Positions 3,114 through 16,288 of a stretch of 64,000 bases of DNA are shown one piece after another. The position numbers and the translations under genes are program-made. The stretch is from Chloroherpetonaceae bacterium. Its GTDB lineage: Bacteria > Bacteroidota > Chlorobiia > Chlorobiales > Thermochlorobacteraceae. The stretch is from positions 1-64,000 of the forward strand of contig JANRJQ010000007.1 in the NCBI GenBank assembly GCA_033763895.1, in the 5' to 3' direction. Position 1 is the first letter of the stretch. Each line of letters begins with the position of its first letter. A model generated the notes under the pieces. That model was not told the DNA's origin, made no database searches, and was given only the letters and a program-made list of their open reading frames with translations.

Positions 3114-3683
3114 TTATTTTAAGGATTTTTTATAAACATTCCACCCAAAATCATTAATTACTTTAACTTCTCCAGTAGTTAGTAAATATACATTTACTTC
3201 TTCTATTGGATTATTTCTTTCTCTATTATTTATAATTCTTCTAACTTTTAAATTTAATGTGTCTATAGATTTATTATAACAACCTGCTACTTTATTATTT
3301 CCGTTATCAGAAAAATATTCAATCTCCCAATTTACATAATACTTTAAATCGCCTTTTTCTATTTTATAATTTAACACTAGACAATATACACCTTCAACAC
3401 TTTTAGTTTTATTTTCACTATTCTTTTCATATGTTTTGTTCTCTAAAAACGAATCATAAAATTTAATAATTACAGAATCATAAAAAATAATATTGAAATC
3501 ATTAAATTTCCTTATTAATATACCTTTACTCAAAGATTCAGTTGAGCTATTGCTTGTTGAGGCAAATGGGGTTTTTCTTATTTTCAAATCGCAAGACTCA
3601 ATACTTAGAAAAGCAAGTAAAGAAATGAAAATAAACTTTTTATTGATGATTGACACCTTAGAACATATAATGTTATTCCTCAT
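3114..3683 (-). CDS. Lipoprotein, probable periplasmic immunity protein
   Basis: 189 residues. A short charged N-terminus is followed by a hydrophobic stretch KFIFISLLAFLSIESC, a lipoprotein signal with Cys as the likely lipidated residue. The mature part is hydrophilic and of no family I recognise. Its start overlaps the end of the preceding RHS-toxin frame by 11 bases, so it is coupled to it. By position it should be the immunity protein of that toxin, and its lipid anchor puts protection in the periplasm. This agrees with a toxin tip that looks like a papain-like hydrolase of wall or lipid bonds. The function is inferred from context. Confidence 0.6.
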   Translation of the reverse strand: MRNNIICSKVSIINKKFIFISLLAFLSIESCDLKIRKTPFASTSNSSTESLSKGILIRKFNDFNIIFYDSVIIKFYDSFLENKTYEKNSENKTKSVEGVYCLVLNYKIEKGDLKYYVNWEIEYFSDNGNNKVAGCYNKSIDTLNLKVRRIINNRERNNPIEEVNVYLLTTGEVKVINDFGWNVYKKSLK

Positions 3684-4860
3684 TTTTCATCTTTTTTGAA
3701 AGATTTATTCTTTTTGGATCTACATCTAATCTTGGAATTAAATTACTTTTATAATGATCTAGCACCCTTTGTAAAAGGTCTATTTCGTTTCCATTAGAAT
3801 CTAATAATTTAGAATTTATAGATCCATTCATCAACCTTAGAAAAATCATATTTGGAGATAAGGTATTTATCATTGCTCCTATCGGACCTCCAATGAATCC
3901 TGTTAAAAAACCTGCAAGACTTTGATTACCCATATATACACCAGCATTATCCAATGCCCTTTGAACAGCGTGTGCACAATTTGCTGTCGTGGTATTATAG
4001 TTTTTTCCCGCTTCTTCCATAAAACCAGCAATTGCTTTTTCATCTTGCTCTTTAGTCATTGGAATTAATAAACCTCGTTCATATAGTGTACCTCCATTAC
4101 TGTCTTTATTAAATTCACTTGCAAAAAACTCCTCTGGACTGTTAAACGGTCCATCTCCTATATTTGGTTTTATACTATTTTCACCTGAGTATCCTAAATT
4201 ATCATTAGTCCCATTTTTTGAATAATAACGCCATTTCCCATCCTTACTTTGTATTAATATTCCAATATGGCCAAAGTTTCCTGCACCTTGAAAATCAACT
4301 AAAACGACAGAAGAATCACCTGTTTTATCAATGTACTTTAATGGATTTACCTTTCCGTAAATGTAGGGGCTTAAATTAGGGTACTTACTTTCAAATCTAT
4401 CCGGCCGATTAAACACGCCTTCAAAATTGAATAACTCTCTTGCGTTGGTATGGGTTGAGCCGGTTTCATTATCCAATTCTAATCCTAAAAACTTCCACCG
4501 ACCATCGCCGCTTTTAATCCAGCTTTGCCGCGGGGCGCCGTAGGCGAAGTAGTCATTGATTTCGGCAAAGGTTATGCCGGCGGAGTCGGAAAAGGTCGCG
4601 CGGTTGTTGCCCAATTGGTCTTTCAAGTAATAGAACCGAACACTATCCGCTCTTCTCAAATACCCAACTTCATTGTAATAAAAAGTCGGGGAAGTTGCAA
4701 GGTTTTCGTAAACAGCAATGAGATTTCCGCCCGCGCCATACTCATACTCCGTCCGTGTTGTATTTCCTCCAACCGTGAACGCTTTTTCTATTCTCGCGCC
4801 TTCGGCGTTATAAAAATAATCAAGAAGATTTCCATCAGACGGTTTAAAAGCTTTTGGCAT
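3673..4860 (-). CDS. Orphan RHS tip with papain-like (permuted NlpC/P60 or LRAT-like) toxin domain
   Basis: 395 residues from the ATG at 4860, but RHS homology (DYFYNAEGARIEKAF) begins within 15 codons, so only the 3' part of an RHS gene is present. Residues about 15-180 are RHS core ending NPLKYIDKTGDSS. The variable tip then carries GAGNFGHIGILI, RYYSKNGTN and NCAHAVQRALDNAG. A His in a strand followed much later by a Cys at a helix start is the arrangement of permuted NlpC/P60 and LRAT-like thiol hydrolases. There is no long hydrophobic pre-toxin segment like that of the other module. A lipoprotein immunity gene follows with an 11-base overlap. The start region abuts the nuo terminator, so no promoter of its own is apparent. 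Confidence 0.65.
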   Translation of the reverse strand: MPKAFKPSDGNLLDYFYNAEGARIEKAFTVGGNTTRTEYEYGAGGNLIAVYENLATSPTFYYNEVGYLRRADSVRFYYLKDQLGNNRATFSDSAGITFAEINDYFAYGAPRQSWIKSGDGRWKFLGLELDNETGSTHTNARELFNFEGVFNRPDRFESKYPNLSPYIYGKVNPLKYIDKTGDSSVVLVDFQGAGNFGHIGILIQSKDGKWRYYSKNGTNDNLGYSGENSIKPNIGDGPFNSPEEFFASEFNKDSNGGTLYERGLLIPMTKEQDEKAIAGFMEEAGKNYNTTTANCAHAVQRALDNAGVYMGNQSLAGFLTGFIGGPIGAMINTLSPNMIFLRLMNGSINSKLLDSNGNEIDLLQRVLDHYKSNLIPRLDVDPKRINLSKKMKNEE

Positions 4861-4913: not shown

Positions 4914-6449
4914 TTAATTCAACAGCCCTAAAATAGATACCGAGTATTTCGCTAAATTTGATAATGGGGCAAAGTAAACTCCCATAACAAAAATCATAAT
5001 CATCAAAAATGAAACCAATGCATTTTGCAGTATTCCAAATTCAATTGGCGATTGATTTCCACTCTCCGATTCTTTGAGATACATATTCAGCGGAATCTTG
5101 AAGTAATAATAAAGAGAAACCACACTCGTTAAAATCCCCGCGGTTGCAAGCAACACAAAAGTTGACCCTTTGGAAAGCAAAGCCGAGAAAATCATATATT
5201 TTCCAATAAACCCTACGGTTGGTGGTAAACCTGTAAGAGATATTAAAAACACGGTTAATGCCGCTGCAAGTATCGGCATGCGCTTTCCAAGCCCTTTATA
5301 ATCGTTAATATCGTCACTACCAATTTTATTTGAGATAAGAATAATCACAAAAAATGCCCCGATATTCATCACAGTATATGCCGTGAGGTAAAATAGAACA
5401 GCTTGTGTGCCTAAATCATCCGCGACCAAAACACCAAGTAAAATATATCCTGCATGCGCAATTGAAGAATACGCAAGAATACGCTTGACATTTGTTTGCC
5501 AAACCGCCACAAAATTACCAAGGATCATAGAAGTCAGTGCTAAAAGCGAAAGCAAGCCAACCCAATCAAGACCAATTTCATTTGCACCGGAAGGGAACGA
5601 AACCCTGAGAAACCGAATCAACATCGCGAAACCTGCCGCTTTTGAGCCAACGGAAAGAAACGCAGTAACCGGAGTCGGTGCACCTTCATAAACATCCGGT
5701 GACCAAAAATGAAACGGTACTGCGCCGATCTTGTATCCAAATCCACCCATAATCAATAAGAGCGAAAGCAGCAACGCAACCGAATCCACATCATGAATTC
5801 TTAGAAAATCAGAAATCGCATAGATGTTGGTTACGCCAGTTAGTCCGTAAAGAATTGAAATCCCATAAATCATCAGCCCCGAGGATACAGACCCATAAAT
5901 GATATATTTCAGCGAGGCTTCCGACGAACGAATATTGCCTTTCAAATAGCCCGTAAGCACATACGACGAAAGGCTTACAAGTTCAAGCGAGAGATACATC
6001 ATAAGCATATCTGAAGCCGAAGCCATTAAAAACATCCCCAAAACCATTGCAACCACAATCGCATAATATTCCCCTAAACTGCGTGTTGCAGATTTGGTTA
6101 ATTCCTCGGATGAAAGTGAGATTAAAATGGCTAAAATGCCCGAAAAGAGAAAAAGATATTTGAAGAAAAGTGCAAAAGGATCAACAGCATGCATTCCTAA
6201 AAAATAATTCCCAAATTCAAGAGAATGTTGCTGAAAAACGAAATAGCCCGTCACAAAAAAACCAACAATTGCAACCGCGGGAATCACCTTTCTTCGGCCG
6301 CTTTTCAAAACCAAATCCAACAATACGATGATTAAAAAAAGTCCTGAAAGGCAGAGTTCCGGCGAAAAAGCAGAAACACTGAGCTTAAGTGCCTCAACCG
6401 TTTGCGGAATATCCACAGGAGCAGTCGCTAAAAAAAGTCCGTTTTTCAT
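4914..6449 (-). CDS. nuoN: NADH-quinone oxidoreductase (complex I) subunit N
   Basis: 511 residues, the usual size for NuoN, an antiporter-like proton-pumping subunit of the complex I membrane arm with about 14 membrane helices. The conserved segment KIGAVPFHFWSPDVYEGAPT carries the central pumping lysine, and YLSLELVSLSSYVLTGY holds the conserved glutamate of the fifth helix. It is the last gene of the eleven-gene nuo operon, 38 bases after nuoM, and is followed by a strong terminator. Confidence 0.95.
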   Translation of the reverse strand: MKNGLFLATAPVDIPQTVEALKLSVSAFSPELCLSGLFLIIVLLDLVLKSGRRKVIPAVAIVGFFVTGYFVFQQHSLEFGNYFLGMHAVDPFALFFKYLFLFSGILAILISLSSEELTKSATRSLGEYYAIVVAMVLGMFLMASASDMLMMYLSLELVSLSSYVLTGYLKGNIRSSEASLKYIIYGSVSSGLMIYGISILYGLTGVTNIYAISDFLRIHDVDSVALLLSLLLIMGGFGYKIGAVPFHFWSPDVYEGAPTPVTAFLSVGSKAAGFAMLIRFLRVSFPSGANEIGLDWVGLLSLLALTSMILGNFVAVWQTNVKRILAYSSIAHAGYILLGVLVADDLGTQAVLFYLTAYTVMNIGAFFVIILISNKIGSDDINDYKGLGKRMPILAAALTVFLISLTGLPPTVGFIGKYMIFSALLSKGSTFVLLATAGILTSVVSLYYYFKIPLNMYLKESESGNQSPIEFGILQNALVSFLMIMIFVMGVYFAPLSNLAKYSVSILGLLN

Positions 6450-6487
6450 TGAATCAGAATCTATTTAATGTGTTCAAAACTGAAAAT

Positions 6488-8104
6488 TTAGAAACCGGCA
6501 ACTGATTGGGTAACTGATAAAACCTGAACCAATTGATTAAGACCCGGCATCATTAAGTCAAGAATTAAGGAAGGATAAACCCCCAAGAGAATCACAAAAA
6601 GGCAAAGCGGGGCAAGCATGACGAGTTCACGGGTATCCAAATCAATCGGCCCTTTCCAATCATGAAAATGCGCGTGACCGTGACCGTGCCCGTCGTCAGT
6701 AACATCATAAGCCGCACCTTCTTTTCGTGTTCCAAAAAAGATGCGTTTCATTGCCCAAAGCAAATAAGCCGCACTGAGAAGAATTCCAAGCGTTGAAATC
6801 GTGGCTAAAAGTCGGGTATTTTCTGCAGAAAAACTTCCCAAGAAAACAAACGCTTCAGCTACGAATCCGGAAAGACCGGGTAACCCAAGCGACGCAAAAA
6901 AGGCAATCATCACAAAACCTGTATATTTCGGCATGTAAGATGCAAGTCCGCCAAACTTCTCGATTTCTCTGGTATGGGCACGGTCGTAAATAACCCCAAC
7001 AAGCAAAAAGAGCATTGAAGTGATTATCCCGTGCGAAAACATTTGCATTACCGCGCCCGACATTCCCTCCGCATTTACTGCTGCAATTCCCAAAAGCACA
7101 TAACCCATATGAGAGACCGAAGAATACGCGATCATTTTCTTCAAATCTTTCTGAGCGATTGCACAAAACGCGCCGTAAACGATGTTAATTGCACCAAAAG
7201 CAGCAATCCACCAAGTCCAATTTTGAAAAATATCTGGGAAAATTGGAAAATTCACCCTTAAAAGTCCATATCCACCTAATTTTAATAGAACACCGGCAAG
7301 AATAACTGAAATCGGCGTAGGCGCTTCAACGTGGGCATCAGGAAGCCAAGTATGAAATGGAAACATTGGGATTTTAATTGCAAATCCAATAAAAAGCGCA
7401 AAGAAACCAATCAATCGCCAAGTGGTATTGACACCAGCAAAAATTGAATCAGGAAGGAAATTGGCCGGATTGGTCATCACAACCATATTAAAAGTATTTT
7501 TTCCGGTTTCGGGGTCAATGACACTCATGTATAAACCAATTCCGGCAAGAAGCATAAATACTGAGCCAAAAAAAGTGTAAATAAAGAATTTAATCGAAGC
7601 ATATTCGCGATTTACGCCCCCCCAAATTCCAATTAAGAAATACATTGGCACCAGCATCAACTCCCAAAACACATAAAAAAGGAAGAAATCAAGCGCAACA
7701 AAACTGCCCATCATCGCGGTATTCAGAACATTGAATAGGATAAAATACCCTTTCACTGATTTTTCAATCGTCCAACTTGAAATCACCGCAATAAACGAAA
7801 CAACGGCGGAAAGTATCACCATCGTAACCGAAAGTCCGTCAACACCTAAGAAATAATCCGCATAAAATCCGTAATTTCCGAATTCCAAGGAAATCCAATG
7901 CCACTTTTCAACCAATTGAAATTTCGTAGCATCATTAATACCGGTTAATGAGGGATCAAACATTTTCCAAATAATAACAGCCAAAACAATCTGAATTCCA
8001 GAGGCAATTAAGGATAGAATTCGTATAAATTCTTTTTGTTTCGATGGAATTAAAAGAATAATTGCCGCGGCAATCAACGGTACAAATGTAATGAGACTAA
8101 GCAT
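6488..8104 (-). CDS. nuoM: NADH-quinone oxidoreductase subunit M
   Basis: 538 residues; antiporter-like proton-translocating subunit of complex I. Key residues are visible: Glu148 in FWELMLVPMY and Lys244 in FAIKIPMFPFHTWLPDAHVE, followed by APTPISVILAG and LKKMIAYSSVSHMGY. A histidine-rich loop (DDGHGHGHAHFHDW, about 470-482) lies between late helices; NuoL has a similar loop. It sits 38 bases before nuoN and 49 after nuoL. Confidence 0.96.
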   Translation of the reverse strand: MLSLITFVPLIAAAIILLIPSKQKEFIRILSLIASGIQIVLAVIIWKMFDPSLTGINDATKFQLVEKWHWISLEFGNYGFYADYFLGVDGLSVTMVILSAVVSFIAVISSWTIEKSVKGYFILFNVLNTAMMGSFVALDFFLFYVFWELMLVPMYFLIGIWGGVNREYASIKFFIYTFFGSVFMLLAGIGLYMSVIDPETGKNTFNMVVMTNPANFLPDSIFAGVNTTWRLIGFFALFIGFAIKIPMFPFHTWLPDAHVEAPTPISVILAGVLLKLGGYGLLRVNFPIFPDIFQNWTWWIAAFGAINIVYGAFCAIAQKDLKKMIAYSSVSHMGYVLLGIAAVNAEGMSGAVMQMFSHGIITSMLFLLVGVIYDRAHTREIEKFGGLASYMPKYTGFVMIAFFASLGLPGLSGFVAEAFVFLGSFSAENTRLLATISTLGILLSAAYLLWAMKRIFFGTRKEGAAYDVTDDGHGHGHAHFHDWKGPIDLDTRELVMLAPLCLFVILLGVYPSLILDLMMPGLNQLVQVLSVTQSVAGF

Positions 8105-8153
8105 ACTTGATTTATTTTCTATCTGATTTCAATTTTGAAGCAAATCGCTCCGA

Positions 8154-10184
8154 TTAACTTCTAAAAAAGATGACAAAGCAACCCACAACAGCAAGTAAAA
8201 GCAACCCAACATAGGCTTGAATTCGACCTGTTTGAAGTTTGCGAAGCAAAATTCCAAAAACCTGAACCATTGCACCCACAAAACTCACAAGCCCATCCAC
8301 AAAAATTCGATCAAATGCACCGTTAAAATTGGAAAATGACCGTCCAACATTCATAAGCCCATAAACAAACCCCCCATCCATAACCGTCTCGTTAAACCAA
8401 GTCATCATTTTGCTAAGCAACCGAAAAGGCGTTTCAAGGGCGTTGATTTTTTTCATATAAACCATAAATGCAATCAATAGCCCAATTAAAGCAAAAGAAA
8501 TTGAAATGATAACGGCTGTTCCGTGTGCGTGATGCGCCGCTTCTTCCAATTCGGATTGACGAGCAATAAACGCGGTATTTGAAGTTAGTCCTTCAGTTTC
8601 CGGAACAACGCGGACAGCAGTTTCAGGGGTTTTGATTAGAGATAAAAACCAACCATTATCGCCGGAGAGCGGATTGGGAGAAAAAACAAACCAAAAAGAG
8701 AGAAAGGCAAGTATGACCAAGGGAATTGTCATCACTAATCCAGATTCATGAATTCCGTGATGTGCTTCCCCTTCATGCCCGTGATGATGATCCACGGCTG
8801 ATACCGGTTTTTCAGAAGCCCTGTTTTCGCCAAAGAAGACCATAAACCACTGTCGCCCCATATAAAAGGGTGTGAGAAGCGCAGCCGCAAATCCAAGAAT
8901 CGGAACAATGAGAAATGCCCCTCCTTCAACATGAGCAAAACCAAGTGCACCGGCCAAAATGGCATCTTTACTTAAAAATCCGGTAAAAAGCGGCAGTCCA
9001 GAAAGGGCAAACAAGCAGATTGTGAATGTGATAAAAGTTACCGGCATTTTAGAACGCAAACCGCCCATATAGCGCATGTCCTGTTCATGATGCGACGCGT
9101 GAATCACCGAACCGGAGCCCAAAAAGAGACCCGCCTTAAAAAACGCATGCGTAACCAAATGAAAAAATGCAGGCGCAACAGATCCAACTCCCATACCCAT
9201 TACCATATAGCCAAGTTGAGAAAGGGTCGAATAGGCCAAAACACGTTTAATGTCATTTTGGTTAATGGCAATGGTTGCAGCGAAAAATGCCGTAACCGCG
9301 CCAATGACTGCAATAAATTGAAGGGCATCCGGGGTAAGAAACGCAAAAATCCGCGCAACAAAATAAACCCCAGCCGCAACCATTGTCGCAGCATGAATCA
9401 ATGCTGAAACCGGTGTCGGACCTTCCATTGCATCCGGAAGCCAAGTATGAAGTGGAAATTGCGCCGATTTTCCAACACAGCCCATAAAAAGTAAAAGTCC
9501 GGCCGCAGTGAGCCAACCATAAGAGAGCGACCACTTTCCTTCGGCCAACGCCTGAGTAATTTCTGAATAGCTAAAAGTATAGAATTGAGAATAGAGGATT
9601 AAAATTCCTAACCACATCCCGATATCACCCACGCGATTGAGCATAAAAGCCTTTTTCTGCGCTTGAGCGGCAGATTCCTTTTCAAAATAAAATCCAATGA
9701 GAAGATATGATGATACCCCAACAAGCTCCCAAAAGATGTAAATCGCAAAGAGATTATCAACCAATACAATCCCTAACATTGAAAAGGTAAATAGCCCGAG
9801 ATACCCAAAAAATCGCTCATATCTTACCTCTCCAGCCATATAGCCAATCGAAAAGAGGTGAACCAAAAAGCTGATTCCCGAAACCACTAAGAGCATTATA
9901 GCCGTGATGTTATCAATCAAAATTCCCATTTTGATTACCAACGGGCCAATAGGAGTTTGACCAAAACGAACCCAAGTAAACTCCCATTTTTGAAAATAGG
10001 ATGAATTAAATTCGCTCAAAACAGACATCGCGATGAACGCGGAAATCGCAAGTGTAACACCTAAAAAGGCTGTAGCAAGAAAATCACCTTTTCGGGGAAG
10101 ATGTTTCCCAAAAAAGATTTGGATAACAAATGAGATTAAAGGAAGTAAAAGTACGATAATGGCGTATGGTATGAGACTATCCAT
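8154..10184 (-). CDS. nuoL: NADH-quinone oxidoreductase subunit L
   Basis: 676 residues, the largest membrane subunit of complex I, with the C-terminal lateral helix and final anchor helix expected of NuoL. Conserved motifs are FWELVGVSSYLLIGFY (Glu153), GKSAQFPLHTWLPDAMEGPT (Lys239) and HAATMVAAGVY. A His-rich loop AVDHHHGHEGEAHHGIHE lies at about 464-480, and a second HH cluster precedes the lateral helix. It pumps protons as part of the membrane arm. Start and stop fit the tight operon spacing. Confidence 0.96.
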   Translation of the reverse strand: MDSLIPYAIIVLLLPLISFVIQIFFGKHLPRKGDFLATAFLGVTLAISAFIAMSVLSEFNSSYFQKWEFTWVRFGQTPIGPLVIKMGILIDNITAIMLLVVSGISFLVHLFSIGYMAGEVRYERFFGYLGLFTFSMLGIVLVDNLFAIYIFWELVGVSSYLLIGFYFEKESAAQAQKKAFMLNRVGDIGMWLGILILYSQFYTFSYSEITQALAEGKWSLSYGWLTAAGLLLFMGCVGKSAQFPLHTWLPDAMEGPTPVSALIHAATMVAAGVYFVARIFAFLTPDALQFIAVIGAVTAFFAATIAINQNDIKRVLAYSTLSQLGYMVMGMGVGSVAPAFFHLVTHAFFKAGLFLGSGSVIHASHHEQDMRYMGGLRSKMPVTFITFTICLFALSGLPLFTGFLSKDAILAGALGFAHVEGGAFLIVPILGFAAALLTPFYMGRQWFMVFFGENRASEKPVSAVDHHHGHEGEAHHGIHESGLVMTIPLVILAFLSFWFVFSPNPLSGDNGWFLSLIKTPETAVRVVPETEGLTSNTAFIARQSELEEAAHHAHGTAVIISISFALIGLLIAFMVYMKKINALETPFRLLSKMMTWFNETVMDGGFVYGLMNVGRSFSNFNGAFDRIFVDGLVSFVGAMVQVFGILLRKLQTGRIQAYVGLLLLAVVGCFVIFFRS

Positions 10185-10227
10185 TGTTAGGATTAAGTTA
10201 AAGTCTTATCTAAAGTTAAATTTTGAA

Positions 10228-10539
10228 TTATTCGCGCATCGTATCAATTTCGCTTAAGTCCACAGTCTTGAATGTTGCGTAAATGTTTAAGACAATAGCC
10301 AAAGCAATAGCTGCTTCTGCAGCTGCCAAAACAATCACAAACACACTGAACACCACGCCATTCATTGTTCCTGTGTACTTAGAAAACGCAATAAGATTGA
10401 GATTTGCGGCATTCAGAATTAACTCTACACCCATTAACACCACAACGGCGTTCTTACGGGTCATAATTCCGAACAAACCAAGCGAAAAAAGTATCGCAGA
10501 AAGCGTTAGGTAATGATTTAAACCGATTTCAGGTAACAT
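10228..10539 (-). CDS. nuoK: NADH-quinone oxidoreductase subunit K
   Basis: 103 residues, three membrane helices, typical NuoK. GVELILNAANLNL carries the conserved membrane glutamate and AAAEAAIALAIVLNIY the second one. A good ribosome site AAGGAG lies seven bases before the ATG. It is part of the proton path at the base of the membrane arm. Confidence 0.96.
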   Translation of the reverse strand: MLPEIGLNHYLTLSAILFSLGLFGIMTRKNAVVVLMGVELILNAANLNLIAFSKYTGTMNGVVFSVFVIVLAAAEAAIALAIVLNIYATFKTVDLSEIDTMRE

Positions 10540-10564
10540 TGAATCTCCTTTGAATTAATTTGAC

Positions 10565-11092
10565 TTAGTTTGCCTTTTCAGGTAGTTCTTTATGTGAAGC
10601 TCTTGCAATGTAGGCCGCTCCCAAAAGAGCGACGAGCAAAACAATCGAGACAATTTCAAACGGAAGGATGTAGTTGGTCATAAATTGGTATCCTAATGGC
10701 TCAACCACTGTGCCGGAAAGCAGAGTCGATGATTCTACCCATTTGACGCGGAAGAAAAATGTGTATAAAATAACGCCCAAAACAGAAAACATGACGATAA
10801 GACCGGGCACAAAATTGAAAACATCGGTTTTTAATTGGTCTTGGGTAATTTTATTGGTGAGCATCACACCAAAAAGAAGGAGAACTAATATACCGCCAAC
10901 ATAAACCACCACTTGTGTCACAGCAATAAAATCCGCACTGAGAAAAACGTACATCGCAGCAACGCCAAAAAGCGTGAATAAGAGTGAAAAGGCGGAATAG
11001 ATAATATTCCTCGAGAAAACCACCAAACTGGCAGAAATCACAATGATGGCGAAGAAGAGGTAAAAAATTGCTTGATAAGTAAAGTTTTGCAT
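10565..11092 (-). CDS. nuoJ: NADH-quinone oxidoreductase subunit J
   Basis: 175 residues with about five membrane helices; VTQVVVYVGGILVLLLFGVML is the conserved NuoJ helix 3 that contains the pi-bulge region in structurally known complexes. Located between nuoI and nuoK with short gaps. The C-terminus is a short cytoplasmic tail. Confidence 0.95.
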   Translation of the reverse strand: MQNFTYQAIFYLFFAIIVISASLVVFSRNIIYSAFSLLFTLFGVAAMYVFLSADFIAVTQVVVYVGGILVLLLFGVMLTNKITQDQLKTDVFNFVPGLIVMFSVLGVILYTFFFRVKWVESSTLLSGTVVEPLGYQFMTNYILPFEIVSIVLLVALLGAAYIARASHKELPEKAN

Positions 11093-11155
11093 GATCGTCA
11101 GTTATTCCTGAAAGATTTTCAAATTGAATATTTCCGATTATTCGGGCTTTGGAGT

Positions 11156-12166
11156 TTAATCTTCATTTTCAGCAGCTTTTTTTGCAGCAAGTTTTGCGGC
11201 CATCATCGGCGATATTTTTTTTGCCGGTGCGGCTTCTCCACCATCGCTTGGTTTGGATTCGCTCGTTGGTGCTGCTTCAGACTTTGGAGTGTCACCTGAT
11301 TCAGTAGCTTTTTTCGCAGCAAGTTTCGCGGCCATCATTGGTGAAAGTTTCTTTTCAGGAGCCGCATTTCCTTGAGAATCCGTAGCATTTGAAGTTGATG
11401 CAGAACCTTCTACAGGATCGGTGGCTTTTTTAGCGGCTGCCATTTTAGCAGCCATCATTGGCGGAAGTTTCTTAGCCGTCGATTCTGCAACAGGAGCCTC
11501 TTGAGTGGCTGCTTCAGAGGAAATCGGAGAATCCGACGACTTTGAAACGGGAGCAGCCTTCGGAGTTACCGCCGGCTTTGCTGGAGCAGCAGCTTTTTTT
11601 GCCGCTTGTTCAGCATCATAGGCAGTTAATTTGGCTTTTTTTGCTTCAGCCAATTCATTGGTCATTGTTCCGAAGTGGTAAATAAAATTACTTCGGTCAT
11701 ATTCAGAGAAATCATGAACAGGGGTCATTGTTAAGCACTCGGTCGGGCAAGGATAGGTACAAAGACCACAGTACATACACTTTGCCATATCAATATCAAA
11801 AACAGGCAACCACAGTTTCTTTTTTGTTCCATCTGAACAAAGCCCGAGTTCCTCAATATCATCAGGTGTAGCCTTAAAAGAATCAATTGTAATGCATTGA
11901 ACCGGGCAAGCACGGGCACACTGATTACAAGCTATACAGTCATCTCCGTCATTATGAAGCCGATACCTTGCAAATGATGGTGTAGGAATGGTTTCACTCG
12001 GATATTGGAGAGAAACAAGCCCACTTTGTTGAGCAAAGTAGTTATCTTCAGAAATACCCGCTTCTCCTTTTCGATTCGTGGCATTTGCGAAATGCTTAAG
12101 GGTAATTCCTAAACCTCCAATTACAGATGTTACGCCTCGAGAGAGGGTTTCAAAGTATCTGCTCAT
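11156..12166 (-). CDS. nuoI: NADH-quinone oxidoreductase subunit I with long repetitive C-terminal tail
   Basis: 336 residues, about twice the usual NuoI. The N-terminal ~180 residues are an ordinary ferredoxin-like subunit. Two Cys motifs, C77-C80-C83-C87 and C130-C133-C136-C140, bind the two [4Fe-4S] clusters passing electrons to NuoB. From about 185 on the chain is Ala/Lys/Ser/Pro-rich and low in complexity. It contains three near-identical blocks of the form K-K-[LI]-[PS]-P-M-M-A-A-K-[ML]-A-A-(A)-K-K-A, at about 232-248, 272-287 and 316-331, separated by Ser/Thr/Glu-rich linkers of about 25-30 residues. The tail is in frame and the stop is clean. It may bind a soluble partner where NuoEFG are missing. 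That role is inference. Confidence 0.95.
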   Translation of the reverse strand: MSRYFETLSRGVTSVIGGLGITLKHFANATNRKGEAGISEDNYFAQQSGLVSLQYPSETIPTPSFARYRLHNDGDDCIACNQCARACPVQCITIDSFKATPDDIEELGLCSDGTKKKLWLPVFDIDMAKCMYCGLCTYPCPTECLTMTPVHDFSEYDRSNFIYHFGTMTNELAEAKKAKLTAYDAEQAAKKAAAPAKPAVTPKAAPVSKSSDSPISSEAATQEAPVAESTAKKLPPMMAAKMAAAKKATDPVEGSASTSNATDSQGNAAPEKKLSPMMAAKLAAKKATESGDTPKSEAAPTSESKPSDGGEAAPAKKISPMMAAKLAAKKAAENED

Positions 12167-12237
12167 AAAAGTTGATTAAAAGTTATTGAGTAATAAATTT
12201 CTAAAATGAACTTTTCCGATTCTGTTTTTAATTGCTT

Positions 12238-13362
12238 TTATCCTCTGACATAAAGTTCCCAAACCGCTGTACCGATAAAGGCAAGGAACCCGAAAGGAAC
12301 CAAAACACGCCAACAGAGATACATTAATTGATCAACACGAAAACGAGGTAATGTCCATCGAACCCACATCATCACAAAAATCCAGAAAAAAGCCTTAAAA
12401 ATAATCCAAAAAACGCCCCATATCGGGCCATTTGTTAATGCATTAAGTTCAAGCCCAGCAATATTCGGGAGTGGTGAATTCCATCCACCCAAAAAGAGCA
12501 CGCAAATCGTTACACTTGTCATAAACATGCTTGCATACTCTGCCAAAAAAATCATCGCAAATTTCATTCCGCCATATTCCGTGAAGTATCCTGAAACCAA
12601 TTCAGATTCTGCTTCAGGGATGTCGAATGGTGCACGGTTACACTCTGCAAGTGACGCAATAAAAAGTATAATCATTGCAACCCAAGCGAAAGGCGATTGA
12701 AATATGGCAAAGTGAACGATTCCCAATGGACCAGATTGAGAAGTTGTAATGCCTTGCATTGAGAGCGTTCCCGCCATCATCACGCCGCATAAAATGGCTA
12801 TTGCTGCAGGAATTTCATAACTCACAACTTGTGCCACACTTCGTACAGCGCCGAATAGCGACCATTTGTTATTTGAACCCCACCCGCATGCCAATATTCC
12901 AACCACCTCAACAGAAACAATCGAAACCGCATAAAAAACACCTACATTCAAATCTGCTGCAATGAACTCACTGCTAAAAGGGAGAACCGCATAAGCAGAA
13001 AAAGCCCCAACAAAAACGACCAAAGGTCCCAAGACAAATAAAGTCCTATCGGCCGCTGTTGGCAGAATATCTTCCTTTTGAATCAACTTTAAAATATCGG
13101 CGATTGTTTGTAACAATCCCCACTTACCGGTTTCATTCGGTCCAATCCGGTCTTGCATAAAAGCTGACACTTTTCTCTCTCCATAAACCCCGGCGTAGAG
13201 TGCATAAACGGCAATAAAAACGAGAGGTATTGCCGGTATGGCGATAAGCCCAAGAAAACTTAAGGAAACACCGGAAATTTCTAAATTTTCCAAAGCCTTA
13301 ACCCAAGTATTTTGGGTGTTTGCGAGTGCTGGCGCGCTATCTAAAATGTAAAGTGAATTCAT
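12238..13362 (-). CDS. nuoH: NADH-quinone oxidoreductase subunit H
   Basis: 374 residues, eight or nine membrane helices. NuoH joins the peripheral arm to the membrane arm and lines the quinone channel. Signature loops are present: [20 protein letters not shown] near the first cytoplasmic loop and [31 protein letters not shown] in the acidic quinone-site loop. Start at 13362 leaves 30 bases after nuoD. Confidence 0.96.
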
Positions 13363-13392
13363 CGGTATTTGTAAAAATTACAGTCTATTTGG

Positions 13393-14598
13393 TTAGCGAT
13401 CGATATCTCCTAAAACAATATCAACACTGCCTAAAATGGCAACCACATCCGAAATCAAATTTCCTTGTGCAAGTTCAGGGAAAACAGAAAGATTAGTAAA
13501 ACTGGCGGCACGCGCTTTGCATCGGTAAGGTTTTGTATTCTTACCATCAGAAACAATATAATATCCCATTTCACCGCGAGGATTTTCCGCTCGAGCATAC
13601 ACTTCGCCTTCAGGTGGTTTCACACGCTTTGGAACTGCGGCTTGCGGATCAAAAACCGGAACTTCGGGCATTTTATCCAAGCATTGTTCAATAATGTTCA
13701 CACTTTCATGTAATTCCTTGCAACGAACCAAATGACGTGAGTAACAATCACCAATGATTCCATCCGTCTCTTTTGGATTAGGGGTAATAATTTTGAAATC
13801 AAGTTCTGGATAAACGGAATAAGGATCATTTTTTCTTAAATCCCATTCTACCCCAGAACCGCGAAGCATTGGACCGGAACAGCCATAATTAATCGCTACA
13901 TTCGCCGGTAGATTACCGATATTTTGAGTTCTTTTGATGAAAAGTTCATTTTCAGTAAGAAGTGAATAAAGTTCATTGATCTGTGGACGATAATACTTGA
14001 CAAATTCACCAACACGCTCTTTAAATTTTTTCGGAAAATCGTGGGAAACACCGCCAACCCAAATGTAATTGTAAAGCATTCTTGCCCCGCAAAGCCATTC
14101 AAGAAGGTTTAGGATGTGCTCCCGGTCTCTCATTGCATGTAGAAACGGAGTAAATGCACCAATATCAAGACCGTAGGTTGTAATACCAATAATGTGAGAT
14201 GCAATTCGATTTAATTCCCCAACAATGACTCTCATAAATTCCACTCGGCGTGGCACTTCAATATTCAAGAGCTTTTCAACCCCTAAACATAAAGCCCATT
14301 CATTATTCATAGCTGCTAAATAGTCCATTCGATCGGTATAGGGAAGAATCTGGGGGTAATCAAGGGCTTCAGCGTGCTTTTCAAAACAGCGATGTAAGTA
14401 TCCCATATGAGGTGTGGCTCTTACGACCACTTCCCCGTCAGTTACAAGTTCAATTCTCAGAACACCGTGAGTTGAAGGATGCTGAGGACCCATATTGAGA
14501 GTCATCAGGTCTGTATCAATTTCTTTTTCAAGTGTATAATTATTCAGTCCGGTTTGAGTTAAACGAACTGCGGCGTTGCCATTGAGGACTTCTGCCAT
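13393..14598 (-). CDS. nuoD: NADH-quinone oxidoreductase subunit D
   Basis: 401 residues, full length for the 49-kDa subunit related to the [NiFe]-hydrogenase large subunit. [15 protein letters not shown] provides the quinone-site histidine loop, [14 protein letters not shown] and [11 protein letters not shown] are conserved, and the chain ends [10 protein letters not shown] as in other NuoD proteins. nuoC and nuoD are separate genes here (77-base gap), unlike the fused gene of enterobacteria. Confidence 0.97.
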
Positions 14599-14675
14599 AA
14601 ATGCTCTTCAAATTTAATGATTCAAACAATAAGCCAAACTGCAATACAAATGGATAACTACAATTCCATCACCAA

Positions 14676-15179
14676 TCAAAATGGAACTTTGATTCCGTGA
14701 TACGTTTCTTGTGTTTTATAATCTTTTCTGAGAGGATGACCTTCCCAATCATCCGGGCAAAGAATTCTGCGAAGGTCGGGGTGAGCAGTATATTCGATTC
14801 CTAACAAATCAAAAGCTTCTCTCTCATGCCATTCAGCCGTTTTCCAAATTTCAGCAACGGAAGGAATTTTCGGGTTATCGTAAGGTACAATAACCTTGAC
14901 GGTAATTTTGTGATAATGAATTCCTAACGATTGAAAATTATAAATCGAAGAAAGTTGTGATTCCTTCGCACCCAAATCTACTCCTGTAATGCAGGAGAGA
15001 TAGTTGAATTGTAATCGAGAGTCTTCACGCATGAAGTAGGCAATGGCTTGCCAAGCGTCAACATCTTTGACAACAAAGAAAGGCATTGTCGGATTCATGT
15101 TGAGAGCAGAAATCGCACCTGAAAACTCTTTATCAATAATCGCGTGAATTTCCGCCGGTGATAATAAGGTTTGTGACAT
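14676..15179 (-). CDS. nuoC: NADH-quinone oxidoreductase subunit C
   Basis: 167 residues. The C-terminal [20 protein letters not shown] and [17 protein letters not shown] are the family signature of the 30-kDa subunit, which packs against NuoB and NuoD in the connecting module. It starts 15 bases after nuoB. Confidence 0.96.
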
Positions 15180-15194
15180 TGAATGTACATTGGT

Positions 15195-15806
15195 TTATGT
15201 TGCAGAAGGTTCAGCGACGGGTTGTTTCGATATTTTCGTTTTTTTCATTCCTTCTAAATAATCTTGAATTACGACTTCAGCCTTATCTGATTTCGCATTT
15301 AATCGCTTTTTCAAGTCAATGCGAGACTCACCAAATTTTTCTTCCCTTACCAACTCTTGAATCTTCATCAATCCACCGATCAAAGCTTCAGGACGCGGAG
15401 GACATCCCGGAACATAAACATCAACAGGAACGATTCGATCAACGCCTTTAACGACATGATAACCGTGTTCCCAATATGGTCCACCACAATTGGCGCAACT
15501 TCCCATTGATATGACATATCTGGGTTCCGGCATTTGCTCGTATAGTCGGCGAATTCGATCTGCCATTTTGAATGTAACTGTACCCGCAACAATCATCACA
15601 TCACTTTGTCTTGGTGAAGTTCTTGGAAAAATTCCGAACCTTTCCAAGTCATAATTCGAAGCATTGGTGGCCATCATTTCAATGGCGCAACAAGCCAACC
15701 CAAATCCCATCGGCCAAAGAGATGATAAGCGAGCCCAATTTAAAAGGTCTTCGGCTTTACTGATGATTACGCCACCTTTTTCAAATTTTTGATCTAAAAG
15801 ACTCAT
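15195..15806 (-). CDS. nuoB: NADH-quinone oxidoreductase subunit B
   Basis: 203 residues. The four ligands of cluster N2 are present: Cys39-Cys40 in [11 protein letters not shown], Cys104 in GSCANCGG and Cys135 in [10 protein letters not shown]2 is the last cluster before quinone. The ~40-residue C-terminus after the core is Lys-rich, longer than the minimal family form. Start is 20 bases after nuoA. Confidence 0.97.
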
Positions 15807-15826
15807 CGTACGATACTTGTTAATGT

Positions 15827-16288
15827 TTAAGAAACAGTTTCTTCTTTTGCAGAAGATGTTTGATACTTTGAAGGCTTTTCAAACACTTTAGTTGGCATCT
15901 TAACTTCATTGGGATTTGGCACAACCCAATCTAAATCACCCTTAACCCAAGCATAGGCAAGACCTACTCCGAGAATAACTAAAAAAACAAGTGCTTCAAT
16001 CAAGGCAAAAGTTCCTAATTCCTTGAATACAGTTGCCCAAGGAAACAAGAAAATGGTTTCTACATCAAAAATGATAAAGATGAGTGCAATAACATAAAAG
16101 CGAATGTTGAACTGAATCCAAGCGTTTCCTTTTGGTTCCTCGCCACATTCGTAAGTTGTGAGCTTTTCAGGGTTGGGACGGTGTGGGCGAATAAATCTTG
16201 AGGTAATAAAGCCTAAGGCGACAAATACCACACCAAAAGCTAAGAAGAGAAATACTTTACCAAATTCAGACACCGCTAATTCAGGCAT
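15827..16288 (-). CDS. nuoA: NADH-quinone oxidoreductase subunit A
   Basis: 153 residues, three membrane helices; [20 protein letters not shown] is the conserved loop facing the quinone channel, and [15 protein letters not shown] the second helix. First gene of the operon. It diverges from ruvX across 267 bases, which must hold the nuo promoter; I could not fix a convincing promoter there. The C-terminal 25 residues form a soluble tail. Confidence 0.95.

Follow-up and report, generated by a model that had tools for sequence, protein, structure and literature searches.

Among the closest described systems to the locus presented here are NDH-1L and the chloroplast NDH complex. Ferredoxin binding to NDH-1L involves a hairpin of the NdhI subunit together with a segment of NdhH, and ferredoxin is usually recruited through basic patches (PMC6992706). 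Green sulfur bacteria and Ignavibacteria possess another close relative, an 11-subunit complex I. One published account gives 11 subunits for Chlorobiaceae, 14 and 11 for the two enzymes of Chloroherpeton, and 12 and 11 for those of Ca. Thermochlorobacter (PMC9318685), and the report on Melioribacter describes a gene cluster without nuoEFG and suggests ferredoxin as the electron donor (PMC3534657). NuoI tails go unmentioned in the passages concerned. In the literature on NuoI of Chloroherpeton, on C-terminal extensions and on similar repeats, we found no description of a tail of the kind reported below. Several short binding motifs set in disordered spacers are characteristic of repeat-bearing linker and anchor proteins, such as EPYC1, CsoS2 and Tic62/TROL; these are different systems, which the NuoI tail would resemble by analogy alone.

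The window, that is, the whole stretch of 64,000 nucleotides of Chloroherpetonaceae DNA analysed in this work, contains an operon of nuo genes (Table 1) which, like NDH-1L and chloroplast NDH, comes without an NADH module and is identical in type to that of the 11-subunit enzymes. The preliminary description of this DNA spoke of a complex I without NuoEFG, which holds for the operon and fails for the genome. On other contigs, NuoF (C4) and NuoE (C14) exceed their family cut-offs, NuoG (C11) is strongly matched, and a second NuoABCD set (C4 and L268) and, separately, an untailed NuoI (C10), here called NuoI-2, are encoded; NuoE, NuoF, NuoG, the second NuoD and NuoI-2 rule out a genome without NuoEFG. 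NuoI-2 is an orphan outside any nuo operon. Each of the examined genomes of f1 (the host's own family), f2 and f13 has such an orphan, in several cases beside an ORF of ~1100 aa, presumably mfd-like. In Chloroherpetonaceae PL23b_bin.36 (G087), the genes for NuoA to NuoH of the second complex are grouped together. The second NuoA-D, the untailed NuoI-2 and the NuoEFG encoded elsewhere thus give the genome two complexes I, and the assignment of each NuoI to its complex is inferred from the operons. An association of the scattered NuoEFG with the tailed complex was considered and dropped, given the second NuoA-D, the untailed NuoI-2 and the published dual complexes. The gene set agrees with those dual complexes as published (PMC9318685). 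Dual complexes I are already known, and the NuoI tail motif is an addition to a known enzyme.

Table 1. Features of the window and two related loci elsewhere in the same genome
Feature	Position	Strand	Size or residues	Remarks
nuoABCD-HIJKLMN operon	4914..16288	minus	11 subunits	without nuoEFG; names from sequence and gene order
nuoC of the operon	14676..15179	minus	167 aa	without motif
nuoI of the operon (NuoI-1)	11156..12166	minus	336 aa	ORF, family matches
KKK of inter-cluster hairpin	11816..11824	minus	residues 115-117	aligned to RKKR of NdhI
Repeat copy 1, KKLPPMMAAKMAAAKKA	11423..11473	minus	residues 232-248	predicted helix 239-247
Repeat copy 2, KKLSPMMAAKLAAKKAT	11303..11353	minus	residues 272-288	predicted helix 279-288
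Repeat copy 3, KKISPMMAAKLAAKKAA	11171..11221	minus	residues 316-332	predicted helix 320-333
NuoI tail motif as single peptide, KKLSPMMAAKLAAKKA				
NuoI-2	L205:9141-9935 (C10)			untailed
Small motif protein	L345:10538-10984 (C7, ~122.5 kb)		149 aa	N-terminal KKLSPMMLKKMQ

NuoI-1 carries two CxxCxxCxxxCP 4Fe-4S motifs with NuoI flanks; both Fer4 motifs fall within residues 74-144, and the core is of the normal two-cluster type. Matches to NuoI families stop at about residue 164-193, which leaves a C-terminal tail of ~145-170 residues. The match to TIGR01971 reaches 82 bits, under the cut-off of 113 bits. By sequence, the core is nearest to chloroplast NdhI among solved structures, with NuoI also among the best PDB matches, and the top Foldseek matches of the predicted structure are complex I subunit I. 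The NdhI chains in the PDB, of 163-196 aa, have no such tail, unlike NuoI-1 with its three motifs on ~170 residues. Where chloroplast NdhI has RKKR, the inter-cluster hairpin keeps a basic pair; in NDH-1L, it is with this hairpin that ferredoxin makes contact (PMC6992706). The median hairpin length is 39 in NuoI-1 proteins versus 28 in NuoI-2 proteins, and the basic pair occurs in 82/87 of the former versus 5/28 of the latter. In a larger set, the pair is missing near the hairpin end in 5 of 138 NuoI-1 proteins, all from Persicobacter and Arcicella; these are among the longest-tailed, and the two genera represent two events at most. The basic hairpin is the sole feature here that, judged from sequence, is consistent with a ferredoxin-dependent complex I.

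The tail holds three copies of a basic block with the consensus KKx[SP]PMMAAKxA(A)xKKA. The preliminary description, which placed a long tail with three near-identical basic blocks behind a normal two-cluster core, was right on each of these points, and the interval it gave (11156-11620) does span the tail. Copies 2 and 3 have an exact 13-mer in common. When the tail was shuffled 20,000 times at constant composition, no segment present twice was longer than 9 residues, and a repeat of at least 13 residues appeared in 7 of 20,000 first-order Markov sequences. The three-copy 6-mer, reached in 24 of 20,000 shuffles, is weak by itself, so the case depends on the near-identical blocks of ~14 residues and on their conservation. 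TRF detected no DNA array of the repeat unit, and the likeness of the copies is thus one of protein; over SPMMAAKLAAKKA, all differences between copies 2 and 3 are synonymous. In the AlphaFold model (mean pLDDT 69 from 30 sequences, few of them close, a limit that applies to the helices as well), the last three tail helices coincide with the three copies, the blocks between helices are mostly below pLDDT 55, and one further tail helix is predicted upstream of the repeats, at residues 170-193.

The motif is present in all ten NuoI-1 genes recovered from the Chloroherpeton/Thermochlorobacter clade (seven from f1, two from f2 and one from f34), with 2-3 copies each when degenerate first copies such as SPLAAKKA and TPLAAKAA are included. 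The linkers of these tails drift while the motif is kept, which bears out the earlier expectation of conservation beyond low-complexity drift. Between the host and Ca. Thermochlorobacteriaceae bin1 (G079), pN is 0.05 in the motif, 0.46 in the linker and 0.18 in the core; it is lower in the motif than in the linker in 9 of 10 pairs compared, a figure biased by columns chosen for the motif itself. Among the Chlorobiaceae sequences listed, the motif is in none of 25 NuoI proteins, and the tails of these EFG-less NuoI are short (~55-75 aa). In a tree of NuoI cores, f1, f2 and f34 group together (support 0.84) as sister to Chlorobiaceae, so the motif was gained once in the clade or lost once in Chlorobiaceae. 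As the latter have the EFG-less enzyme only and lack the motif, it is dispensable and unneeded for a ferredoxin-type function. No relative was found in viral contigs.

Other proteins carry the motif as well. Among the matches listed for a motif model searched against 11 genomes of f1 and f2, the carriers were NuoI, NuoC (at its N-terminus) and one small protein. NuoC bears the motif in f2 only, with two copies each in G087 and in G005, which we take to be Chloroherpeton thalassium; its presence on NuoC speaks for a role at the peripheral arm. The small protein has 116-157 aa, a start like MADEPKKLSPMMAKKLA and a conserved C-terminal domain; in the host and in f34, the neighbouring genes, as judged by eye, encode a glutamine synthetase and a regulator of the Lrp type. 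It is syntenic in f1 and f34, with the motif at its N-terminus; in G005 the locus takes a weaker form in which the motif is not clear. In a later census of 1.67 of 3.55 Mb (47%) of the host genome, NuoI and the small protein were the only ORFs above noise. A stretch of BchX, KKLPPMAARKLA, was rejected as a further carrier: its likeness (E 2.1 in the whole-genome search) does not rise above noise when the stretch is kept outside the model and is therefore unused as evidence.

Our tentative reading, which is quite possible and to which we give most weight, is that the tail serves the EFG-less complex I as a docking arm, flexible and multivalent. Three short basic helices, each with a Ser/Pro-Pro cap, a Met-Met pair and a Lys face, would be borne on disordered Ala/Ser/Glu/Pro linkers and attached just past the terminal Fe-S clusters, where the arm could capture a partner protein and concentrate it near the site of electron entry. 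The motif would bind protein, and several copies would act together. The partner may be an electron donor of acidic character, for example ferredoxin, or else a scaffold to which the small protein binds as well; ferredoxin is plausible and takes about half of the probability given to docking. Three basic helices on a flexible arm beside the entry clusters would be in keeping with donor capture.

The motif could instead mark location, a reading we consider unlikely, in which NuoI, NuoC and the small protein are tagged for the same structure and complex I is held in the photosynthetic apparatus, for instance at FMO, the reaction centre or a membrane scaffold. The sharing of one motif by otherwise unrelated proteins speaks for such a tag, and as the small protein is without a match in Pfam, NCBIfam or the PDB sequences, the shared motif could reflect a shared location and not an electron donor; the same lack of a match also counts against the tag. 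FmoA is encoded by all 61 members of the order searched, which makes a green phototrophic host very likely; in the host, it lies 4 kb outside the window. In PscB, the termini wrap FMO and the loop 17-129 is unmodelled (PMC9529944); PscB, however, gave no match to the motif model in whole f1 and f2 genomes, and Chlorobiaceae have FMO but lack the motif.

Tail length follows the type of NuoI. Counted after the second cluster, in samples that come from a hit list and are not independent, NuoI-1 tails (n=87) have a median of 66 and a maximum of 442 residues, with at least 100 residues in 20/87, versus a median of 41 and a maximum of 92 in NuoI-2 (n=28), with at least 100 residues in 0/28. The motif is on NuoI-1 and on none of the NuoI-2 proteins examined. 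The long tail is tied to the EFG-less type of gene, in support of the earlier interpretation; the proposal that species with nuoEFG would be free of it failed, since the genomes with the motif encode NuoEFG and Chlorobiaceae, with no NuoF above the family cut-off among the genomes listed, lack the motif. Elsewhere in the phylum, Cytophagales have NuoI tails of 177-442 residues with unrelated repeats (loci L146, L177, L116, L118, L145, L154 and L164). Persicobacter, Roseivirga and one Cytophagales MAG, with no NuoF above the cut-off, have AKKPVIKPKIGG and KPVIKP, and KPVFKPSFKPK occurs as well. Arcicella combines a repeat-tailed NuoI-1 with an EFG operon, and as this operon has its own untailed NuoI, the apparent counterexample dissolves. 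In the NuoI tree, these proteins form a clade of their own, which implies at least two origins of repeat tails. A wider generalization, which we hold to be rather unlikely as a whole, is that donor-capture arms emerged more than once among EFG-less complexes I, as flexible tails of NuoI built around a repeated basic motif, with one such motif in Chloroherpeton/Thermochlorobacter and different ones in Persicobacter, Arcicella and Roseivirga; at the extreme, these arms would replace the basic hairpin, and in the green phototroph clade one docking code would serve NuoI, NuoC and a small adaptor.

Many NuoI-1 tails of the phylum are rich in Ala, Lys and Pro without repeats, as would be expected if the tail were low-complexity drift with duplicated segments and had no specific role. 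This is quite unlikely, given that the sequence and number of the motif are kept over several genera with synonymous change and that the motif also occurs on separate proteins. Binding of the cationic helices to the membrane or a polyanion beside the quinone module appears more doubtful still. The repeats are basic and rich in alanine and methionine, the tail has a pI of 9.1 versus 5.1 for the core, and NuoI lies near the membrane, as judged from the N-helix of NdhI (PMC6992706); yet the helical hydrophobic moment of the repeats is low (0.08-0.28), and the conserved Pro and Met-Met show more specificity than charge by itself would require. A tag for identity or assembly, separating the EFG-less from the NADH-type complex and suggested by the occurrence of the motif, within the order, in two-complex lineages and not in one-complex Chlorobiaceae, is very improbable, since Sphingobacterium, Pedobacter and related genera combine NuoF with a short-tailed NuoI-1, and long repeat tails occur in Persicobacter and Roseivirga, where NuoF is missing.

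As for the docking arm, a motif shared by NuoI, NuoC and the small protein offers a concrete bait for the electron donor of a complex I without NuoEFG, which is still sought in many bacteria, and the two NuoI types of one genome provide an internal control. Should the arm work as proposed, it would illustrate how partner specificity can be gained by an enzyme through an added disordered tail.

Three minor observations were made alongside. The NuoI of Chlorobiales ES-bin-17 (L103:6791-8185), of 465 aa, closes with a hydrophobic segment, ILSGVTTLVTGALYVGAGLAMALTLGLFKAITT, a possible membrane anchor. At L215:7022-8485 (C4, ~687.0-688.5 kb), BchX (TIGR02016, 400 bits) is fused to a C-terminal sigma-70 region 4 (PF08281, above cut-off), an unusual arrangement with the motif-like stretch mentioned above in its linker. 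Finally, an ORF on the minus strand of the window (3673-4860), by eye similar to RHS-repeat-associated core proteins, adjoins the nuo operon.
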